Part shown: one piece after another, positions 20,856 through 23,682 of the stretch
Position numbering within the stretch: position 1 is the stretch's first letter
Layout: each line of letters opens with the position of its first letter
Origin: Gemmatimonadales bacterium
GTDB taxonomy: Bacteria > Gemmatimonadota > Gemmatimonadetes > Gemmatimonadales > GWC2-71-9
Length of the DNA: 42,278 bases
Assembly: GCA_036265815.1 (NCBI GenBank)
Contig: DATAOI010000049.1
Coordinates: forward strand, 76,126 to 118,403
Direction of reading: 5' to 3'
Position numbers and translations under genes: made by a program
Notes under the pieces: generated by a model
What the model was told of the DNA's origin: nothing
Databases searched by the model: none
The model's input: the letters and a program-made list of their open reading frames with translations, nothing else

Positions 20856-20883
20856 GCCCCGGCCCCCTCAGGGGGACCGGGGC
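20856..20883. terminator. bidirectional terminator after the cold-shock gene
   Basis: Stem GCCCCGG-C-CCCC / GGGG-A-CCGGGGC with one mismatch and a 4-base loop (20856-20883) lies 35 bases past the csp stop and overlaps the 3' end of the converging gene at 20868-21179. The T-run is weak (CTTCGTC). Confidence 0.55.
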
Positions 20884-21179
20884 TTCGTCATGTTCCGGCG
20901 GCGGTACGGACCACAGGGCGGGTCGCCGGGCCGCTGGACGCCGTGCAACGTGGGTCGGATGGAGTCCACCACCGCGGTATCGGCCGCCGTCCTGGCGGAG
21001 GCGTAGCGCTCCCGGCACTCGCCAACCACTTCCGCGAGGTCGTCTCGCATCGTGTGCACCCGGCGGGTGCGCGCGATGATCACCGGCAGCAGCGCCACGA
21101 TGACGGCGCCAACCAGCAGCATGACGATCAGCGCGCGCGAGCCGGGGCCGCTCCGGCCAGGCGGCGGATTCGCGGTCAT
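20868..21179 (-). CDS. small membrane-anchored protein of unknown function
   Basis: 103 residues: a Pro/Gly/Arg start, one membrane helix (ALIVMLLVGAVIVALLPVIIA, about 16-36), then a short periplasmic tail with ECRERYASARTAADTAVVDSIRP and a basic C-terminus. The ATG at 21179 overlaps the stop of the methyltransferase gene (ATGA). Not recognised. Confidence 0.65.
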   Translation of the reverse strand: MTANPPPGRSGPGSRALIVMLLVGAVIVALLPVIIARTRRVHTMRDDLAEVVGECRERYASARTAADTAVVDSIRPTLHGVQRPGDPPCGPYRRRNMTKPRSP

Positions 21180-21961
21180 GGCGCGCCCGCGGGACTGAGC
21201 GGTCGGGCGGACCTGCCCAGACGAAGTGTCAGCGGCCACCGCACCTGGCGACGCACGTCCAGGGCCTGCCCCCAGAGCGGGGCGAGCTCGGCGCCCAACG
21301 GCTCGACCGGATCGTAGCCCTCCGACAGCACGAACCCCGCGGTGGCCGACCAGGTGCGGATGTACGCCAGCAACTCCCCCAGGGTCCACTCGTGCACCAT
21401 CTCGAACGCCTGGGCGACGAGCTCGTCAAACGGGAACGGAAGTGTGCGGTACCCGGTCTCGACCAGCCGCCGCTCGGGAGACCAGTACGGCCCTACGCGC
21501 TCATGGTAGAAGCTCGCCAGCAGGCGGTCCATGCGCTCCTCCCCCACGCGCTGCAGCCCGTAGCACCAGACGGCGAGAACACCGCCGGGCACGAGAGTGC
21601 GCGTGGCTTCCTCATAGAAGGCCGCGACGTCGAACCAGTGGAGCGCCTGCGCGGCGGTCACCAGGTCCATCGAGCCTGACAGGATCCCGCTCGCCTCGGC
21701 CGCGGCCACACGATAAGTCACGTGCCGATGTGCGCTCGCCTCCGCCAACTGTTCGGCGCTCGCGTCGGTCGCCGTCACGTCGTTGAAGAACTCCGCCAGC
21801 CCCAGCGCCGCCTGCCCGCTCCCCGTCCCCGAGTCCCAGGCACGACGGCGCGCGGGCGCGACGCTCGCCAGGTACGCGAACAGCGCCCGCGGGTACGAGG
21901 GGCGGGCCGCCGCGTACGCCGGCGCGAGGGTCGAAAAATGATCGGCAAAGGGCTGCGGCAG
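21176..21961 (-). CDS. class I SAM-dependent methyltransferase, apparent CTG start
   Basis: 261 residues. Family hallmarks are FADHFSTLAPAYAAARPSYP at the N-terminus, the SAM motif I WDSGTGSGQAALGLAEFF, VTATDASAEQL, and ITAAQALHWF-like VTAAQALHWFD, as in the YafE/Methyltransf_11 type. The substrate is unknown. The frame is closed upstream by TAG at 21989-21991, and no ATG, GTG or TTG precedes motif I; the first GTG (21778) would delete it. A CTG at 21959-21961 stands 6 bases after AAGGAG and gives a normal N-terminus, so I call that start. The frame also matches the upstream gene across the TAG. Confidence 0.85.
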   Translation of the reverse strand: MPQPFADHFSTLAPAYAAARPSYPRALFAYLASVAPARRRAWDSGTGSGQAALGLAEFFNDVTATDASAEQLAEASAHRHVTYRVAAAEASGILSGSMDLVTAAQALHWFDVAAFYEEATRTLVPGGVLAVWCYGLQRVGEERMDRLLASFYHERVGPYWSPERRLVETGYRTLPFPFDELVAQAFEMVHEWTLGELLAYIRTWSATAGFVLSEGYDPVEPLGAELAPLWGQALDVRRQVRWPLTLRLGRSARPLSPAGAP

Positions 21962-21988
21962 CGCCGGCTCCTTCCGAAGCTCCAGGTC

Positions 21989-22483
21989 CTACCCCGCCGG
22001 GTCGCTTTCCCGGTCCACGCGATCCATCATGTCAGCGACGTCCTGGGCCGTGAGCCCAACGTCCTGCAGCATCTCTTCCGTGCTGGGCCGGCTGAAGTCC
22101 TCGCGCCGCGCCTCGAAGATGAGCTCGTAGGCGTGGGGTCCGTCGAGGGGCTGCTGCTGGCGAAGTGCCCAGCCGCTCTCGTCCAGGAACAGGTGCATGG
22201 CGTGCCCGAGCGACTCGAAGGAGTTCTCGCTCCACCGGTGCAGGGCCGGATGCCAGAAGCGCGAGAGCAGCACCGTGCCCTGCGGCACCTGGTCGGCGGC
22301 CGTGGCGGCGCGGGTGGTGACCACGACGAGATGCGGCCGACCCGGTCGCCCGGCGGAACGGGCCGACGGATCGGTGGCCGGCTGCGGCTCGAGCACCGCC
22401 TCCTGCGTCTCGAACGGCAGGCGCTCACCCGGACGGGGTAGATCCCGGTCATCGCGAGAAGCGCGTCCTCCCGGCCCACTCAC
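21989..22483 (-). CDS. hypothetical protein, 164 residues
   Basis: GTG start overlapping the stop of the serine hydrolase gene (GTGA). After a charged 35-residue start it has HLVVVTTRAATAADQVPQGTVLLSRFW, SFESLGHAMHLFLDESGWAL and LDGPHAYELIFEARREDFSRPSTEEMLQDVG, which looks like a soluble alpha/beta protein. I do not recognise the family. It ends in TAG in the same frame as the methyltransferase that follows. Confidence 0.7.
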   Translation of the reverse strand: MSGPGGRASRDDRDLPRPGERLPFETQEAVLEPQPATDPSARSAGRPGRPHLVVVTTRAATAADQVPQGTVLLSRFWHPALHRWSENSFESLGHAMHLFLDESGWALRQQQPLDGPHAYELIFEARREDFSRPSTEEMLQDVGLTAQDVADMMDRVDRESDPAG

Positions 22484-23682
22484 GGTGCGACGAGCTCCAC
22501 CGCACGCCCGGTGAGCGCATCCCAGCCTGCTGCCGAGCGCTCCGGATGGGCCTCGTCGGTGGTATTCAGCACTCCGATGACCGCGGTCGTGGAGCGGGGA
22601 TCCAGGTACACAAACGAGCGGAACCCCGATTGCTCACCCGTATGCCCGACGATGGTCGTGCCGCCACGGGGGTACAGGTAGAACGACAGCCCGAAGGCAT
22701 CGCCCCCGGTGCCGCCTGCCGCGAGCGGCACGACGGGGCGCCACATCTCCTCGAGGGTCGCGTGGGCCAGGACGCCATCGTAGCGGCGCGCCACGGCAGT
22801 GTCGCCGCCGTCGGCATGGGTGAGAAAGGCGACCCAGGCGACCAGATCGGCGATGGGGGCGTTCCATCCGCTGTTGGGAATCGTGACCCCCGGATCGAAC
22901 TCCCGCGGATTTGCGTCCACCCGGTCATGGCCGGCGCTGTCGGAATGTACGGTGTAGCTGGGCGCGCGAACCTCGGCGAGCTCATAGGGCGACACGCCGA
23001 CGAAGCTGCGCGTCATGCCGAGAGGCGTCCAGATGTTCTTCTGGATGTAGACCGCCCAGAGGTCACCAGTTACCCGCTCGACTACCTGGGCGAGATAGAT
23101 GAAGGCCGGATTGCTGTAGCCGAAGCGCGTGCCCGGGGCGAACTCAAGCTCCTGGTAGGGCATCATGGCGACGAGCTGTTCCCACCGCGTGGGCTCGAAG
23201 GGCTCCCATGGCCGGCCCTGGCCGTACGGCCACGTCGGGTTCTGGAAGCCGGCCGAGTGTGACAGGAGCATGCGCAGCGTCACCTCGTCCATCGAGCCGT
23301 ACGCGTCGTGCACCTGCCGGAGCTCGGGCACATACCGGGTGATGGGATCGTCGAGCGTGAGGCGCCCCCGATCCCGGAGCTGCATGATGGCGACGGCCGT
23401 GAGCGTCTTGGTGATCGAGGCCCAGTGATAGACCGCGCGCTCGTCCGGCGGGCGGTGCTGCTCGCGGTCGCCGAACCCGTAGTGATGGCGAGCGAGGATG
23501 CGGCCGTGCCCCACCATTACGGCGCTCGCGCCGACGACAGCATCGGCGCGGGCATAGGCATCGAGCGCGGCGGTGAACGCGGGCCAGCGAGCCGGCACGG
23601 GCGGCGCCCCCCGGCTCGCCTGCGCTGTCCCGGAACCGGTGGCCAGCGGCGCGAGGATGAGCAGCGCGATGCCCGCGCGCAG
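22480..23682 (-). CDS. secreted serine hydrolase, beta-lactamase (class C)/DD-peptidase-like, apparent CTG start
   Basis: Serine hydrolase of the penicillin-binding fold. It has SxxK as SITK (nucleophile Ser), the YxN triad as YSN (GTRFGYSNPAFIYLA), and HTGEQSGFRS in place of the KTG motif, all at usual spacing. If started at the first GTG (23598) it has 372 residues and no export signal. Extending the same frame to a CTG at 23680-23682 adds RAGIALLILAPLATGSGTAQA, a complete signal peptide with an A-x-A site, giving 400 residues. No ATG, GTG or TTG exists before that. Substrate unknown; a peptidase or esterase is as likely as a beta-lactamase. Confidence 0.85.
   Translation of the reverse strand: MRAGIALLILAPLATGSGTAQASRGAPPVPARWPAFTAALDAYARADAVVGASAVMVGHGRILARHHYGFGDREQHRPPDERAVYHWASITKTLTAVAIMQLRDRGRLTLDDPITRYVPELRQVHDAYGSMDEVTLRMLLSHSAGFQNPTWPYGQGRPWEPFEPTRWEQLVAMMPYQELEFAPGTRFGYSNPAFIYLAQVVERVTGDLWAVYIQKNIWTPLGMTRSFVGVSPYELAEVRAPSYTVHSDSAGHDRVDANPREFDPGVTIPNSGWNAPIADLVAWVAFLTHADGGDTAVARRYDGVLAHATLEEMWRPVVPLAAGGTGGDAFGLSFYLYPRGGTTIVGHTGEQSGFRSFVYLDPRSTTAVIGVLNTTDEAHPERSAAGWDALTGRAVELVAP

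Follow-up and report, generated by a model that had tools for sequence, protein, structure and literature searches.

A probable CTG start codon in a methyltransferase gene of a Gemmatimonadales bacterium and putative CTG starts elsewhere in its GTDB family

A methyltransferase gene lies on the minus strand of the window, as we call the whole 42,278-nucleotide stretch of Gemmatimonadales DNA analysed here, and no canonical start codon precedes its conserved N-terminus, which raises the question of where its translation begins. An earlier note on this DNA had proposed initiation at a CTG, reporting two CTGs and no canonical start between an upstream TAG and the conserved N-terminus. Direct reading of the window bore this out: the codons from the TAG to the conserved N-terminus run GAC CTG GAG CTT CGG AAG GAG CCG GCG CTG CCG CAG CCC TTT, and no ATG, GTG or TTG occurs in the methyltransferase frame between TAG (21991-21989) and GTG 21778. 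The placing of the second CTG at 21959-21961, 6 bases from AAGGAG, was likewise confirmed, the spacer being ccggcg. The features concerned are as follows, G008 being a congener described below.

22480..23598, minus strand: serine hydrolase / beta-lactamase family gene (PF00144, E 6e-63), with a GTGA overlap with the next gene
21989..22483, minus strand: upstream gene, with 18 synonymous and 4 nonsynonymous differences; its stop lies 27 nt before the CTG
21989..21991, minus strand: in-frame TAG, stop of the upstream gene, kept in G008 but there in a different frame relative to the methyltransferase
21968..21973, minus strand: Shine-Dalgarno AAGGAG (GGAAGGAG, 21975-21968), read directly and identical in G008
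21959..21961, minus strand: putative CTG start codon of the methyltransferase (predicted to be read as fMet), the only NTG/ATN codon sensibly placed, kept in G008
21776..21778, minus strand: first canonical in-frame start codon (GTG), the 60 codons preceding it being coding
21176..21961, minus strand: class I SAM-dependent methyltransferase, 261 aa (Methyltransf_11; Pfam PF08241, E 1.4e-15)
20868..21179, minus strand: small membrane-type ORF, downstream, with an ATGA overlap with the methyltransferase stop and omega 0.13

The predicted protein scores 58.1 bits against PF08241 (cut-off 21.2) and carries SAM motif I as WDSGTGSGQ. Its closest solved relative is PDB 4hg2, a Methyltransferase type 11 (E 1.4e-61, residues 4-251), and the two share a family over nearly the full length; to our knowledge, the substrate is known for neither. 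Against the NCBIfam model for the BioC malonyl-ACP methyltransferase it reached 39.7 bits, far below the curated cut-off of 184.95. A start at GTG 21778 would cost the protein SAM motif I, as the earlier note had said, and 61 residues in all, whereas initiation at the CTG would give the predicted N-terminus (M)PQPFADHFSTLAPAYAAAR. The upstream gene 21989..22483 gave no match in Pfam or NCBIfam and, to judge from its sequence, is under purifying selection; 22480..23598 is the first gene of the probable operon.

The earlier note had taken the strong Shine-Dalgarno as support for the CTG. It is spaced 6 nt from the CTG and retained in G008, but the pattern itself is not above chance, since AAGGAG-N4-9-CTG occurs twice in the window against 1.12 matches expected, and a survey of about 1 Mb from the window's genome revealed no enrichment of CTG downstream of Shine-Dalgarno-like sites. 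We therefore rejected the combination as statistical evidence and count the Shine-Dalgarno as supporting evidence only; the SD-CTG pattern being unremarkable alone, the case must rest on comparison. RNA structure around the methyltransferase start was nothing unusual (z 0.45).

Among related genomes we found one close orthologue, with 93% protein identity, on contig JAICLE010000130.1 of G008, an independent assembly of a Gemmatimonadales bacterium (cov 14.7). Window and G008 DNA are 95.7% identical over 4.8 kb, and the Shine-Dalgarno and the CTG are identical and the frame is open in both. Since the two CTG copies differ by 4.3%, conservation of the 9 key bases is weak evidence alone. The comparison nevertheless narrows the possible start sites, because G008 has one inserted base at 21977 that shifts the frame of the upstream gene relative to the methyltransferase, with the upstream TAG retained. 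Everything upstream of this indel is therefore ruled out as a shared start, including the first CTG (21987-21985), which is out of frame in G008. On this alignment, initiation must be confined to the short stretch shared with G008, in which, of all codons ahead of the conserved N-terminus, the second CTG alone is NTG or ATN.

Substitutions between the two copies indicate that the N-terminus is coding. The whole gene shows 28 synonymous and 17 nonsynonymous differences without indels (dS 0.15, omega 0.20), and the 60 codons from the CTG to GTG 21778 show 9 synonymous and 0 nonsynonymous differences. Judged by this pattern, the gene is not in decay and its N-terminus ahead of GTG 21778 is translated, from a start that must lie no more than about 20 nt upstream. 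In a scan of aligned blocks between G008 and the window's genome (G000), which covered 65 and then 78 coding ORFs, the methyltransferase ranked first in evidence that coding sequence extends ahead of the first canonical codon (p ~7e-5 over 70 codons).

The 71 homologues compared, drawn from the GTDB family, the order to which it belongs and four outgroups, place the start in the same region. A canonical start lies 2-13 codons before the D-H-F motif in 61 of the 71, and the window CTG lies 7 codons before it, in agreement with the claim that the CTG stands where family members begin. The other 10 have no canonical start there, and 7 of these are coherent cases: the window and G008 with CTG, G076 and G077 with CTG, and G033, G085 and G078 with ACG. 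In G076 and G077, of genus g47, the CTG runs into the TGA that ends a conserved gene upstream, in a CTGA overlap. In three species of genus g25 (G033, G085, G078; loci L012, L043, L044), ACG (ACGCCGCCG), preceded by GAGG-type Shine-Dalgarno sequences, seems to be the start codon of the orthologues; very few native ACG starts in bacteria are known to us. On the protein tree, the non-canonical starts of window/G008, g47 and g25 fall as three separate gains among ATG/GTG lineages. One further ACG candidate, L042, was dropped because it looks like a 1-nt deletion. Two other loci, L033 and L059, have no canonical, CTG or ACG start, and both show a GTA near the expected position.

Taken together, it is highly likely that the methyltransferase is translated from CTG 21961-21959, positioned by the Shine-Dalgarno, with the ordinary initiator tRNA presumably reading CUG and giving fMet. 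The other explanations fare much worse. Loss of the start codon, leaving either a decaying pseudogene or a short form made only from GTG 21778, would account for the absence of a canonical start, and a 200-aa product from that GTG is possible in principle; against this stand an omega of 0.20, an ORF free of indels and purely synonymous differences before the GTG, and the short form would be without SAM motif I, so that we regard this explanation as very unlikely. Readthrough of the TAG or frameshifting from the upstream gene, yielding a fusion protein, is suggested by the window itself, where the upstream gene shares the methyltransferase frame at a distance of 27 nt. In G008, however, the upstream gene is one frame off and the TAG is kept, and a single readthrough mechanism cannot fit both arrangements; the 1-nt indel therefore speaks for excluding stop readthrough or fusion, and since homologues own canonical starts near the D-H-F motif as well, we rate a fusion as even less probable.

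A sequencing or assembly error that conceals an ATG or GTG, or a wrong frame, could be suspected in a metagenome-type assembly, the more so as the homologue L042 resembles a 1-nt deletion. The earlier note had named such an error among the things that would overturn its proposal, yet the same CTG, Shine-Dalgarno and open frame in the independent G008 assembly, amid ordinary divergence, make it extremely improbable. We give just as little credence to a start at some other non-canonical codon of the same short stretch, such as the AAG within the Shine-Dalgarno or a codon just downstream of the CTG. Initiation must indeed fall within a few codons, and the evidence that separates them is that of sequence only; but no alternative is NTG or ATN, the AAGGAG spacing suits the CTG, and relatives put CTG or GTG at about the same point of the methyltransferase gene.

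The AAGGAG would place ribosomes at the CTG, perhaps assisted by ribosomes terminating at the TAG just upstream, and the ordinary initiator tRNA would pair imperfectly with CUG to put fMet at position 1. The yield from CUG would probably be low, and by analogy with infC and sigR, IF3 would be expected to discriminate against the methyltransferase CUG, so that the weak start would keep the enzyme at a low, IF3-dependent level. We also considered an altered, CUG-tolerant initiator tRNA, an idea taken from PMC11497404, and rejected it: G008 and six further relatives carry an initiator tRNA whose anticodon stem is the normal GGG/CCC. There is therefore no special machinery to point to, which counts against the CTG start. 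No initiator (fMet) tRNA was found in the G000 assembly, which is called 99% complete, whereas 82 of 102 family genomes gave a tRNA match; the missing tRNA is most likely an assembly gap.

CTG starts recur elsewhere in the GTDB family. The infC gene, which encodes IF3 and is the textbook example of a non-canonical start, has a CTG start behind a GGAGG-type Shine-Dalgarno in 20 of the 21 genomes of the family examined (L082 on contig C11 of G000; L203-L231), while all 9 genomes from two sister families within the order have ATT. The unbiased scan of G000/G008 blocks also brought up a brkB/yihY gene (L248:15323-16321, minus strand; PF03631) with the arrangement GAGGAG-8 nt-CTGA. Its CTG is retained in 16 genomes (L257-L272 among the loci), the other 15 at 52-78% protein identity, and in three more distant members GTG takes exactly its place, behind the same Shine-Dalgarno. 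In seven genomes, six with CTG and one with GTG, we verified that the brkB/yihY start overlaps the stop codon of a conserved gene upstream. In the source's family, CTG thus very probably works as a conserved start codon. The earlier note had called native CTG starts rare in bacteria; they are indeed a known rare kind, but with those of infC and brkB they look less exceptional here than across bacteria as a whole, and what is new, as read from these alignments, is their repeated and conserved use in one family. We consider it possible, though rather doubtful, that CTG serves family-wide as a regular, selection-kept start for a set of IF3-sensitive, weakly initiated genes (infC, brkB/yihY, the methyltransferase and probably more) that is invisible to gene finders, with ACG perhaps serving likewise in one genus.

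Known systems offer partial parallels. As cited in PMC5472188, infC starts at ATT in E. coli and at ATC in Streptomyces, and like the methyltransferase these genes combine a non-canonical start, a strong Shine-Dalgarno, a conserved gene and misannotation by gene finders; infC, however, is autoregulated by IF3 and has been studied experimentally, whereas the IF3 link of the methyltransferase is drawn by analogy. Streptomyces sigR, whose GTC start is repressed by IF3 (PMC5472188), resembles the methyltransferase in being a gene other than infC with a conserved non-canonical start and an extensive Shine-Dalgarno, but it encodes a sigma factor, uses GTC rather than CTG and has a proved regulatory role, which for the methyltransferase would be a guess. 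In prokaryotes, switches to CUG have been counted at 2 of 61,358 ancestral AUG, 1 of 5,080 GUG and 1 of 2,468 UUG starts, a rate of 3e-5 to 4e-4 per ancestral start (PMC5622118). Those switches are isolated, unlike the source's family with at least three genes starting at CTG, two of them conserved across genera.

Such starts matter for annotation. Gene finders accept only ATG, GTG and TTG, and CTG starts are therefore misplaced: CTG-started genes are truncated or lost, and the methyltransferase would be left without its SAM-binding motif and infC without its conserved N-terminus. With CTG conserved across genera in infC and brkB, and ATT or GTG taking its place in more distant relatives, the family would form a natural system for asking why selection keeps a start codon this poor and whether the control exerted by IF3 reaches further genes.

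The close match to G008 is itself peculiar to part of the contig. Window positions 8582-42278 are about 95% identical to G008 (contigs C12, C34, C36, C44), whereas most of what was sampled elsewhere in the genome, contig C49 ahead of that point included, is about 74-83% identical; along C49 the change, from about 80% to about 95%, is abrupt. A second aroA is also present in G000, whose contig C11 ends in a second, diverged copy of the syntenic block (cmk, aroA, glgX region). Recent transfer, recombination, a chimeric assembly or contig exchange between bins are possible origins, among which composition does not decide; mis-binning of the window contig by GC was dropped as a candidate when the apparent difference proved to come from masked N stretches and vanished. 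The lineage argument is independent of this question, because infC and brkB CTG starts are present in both G000 and G008.
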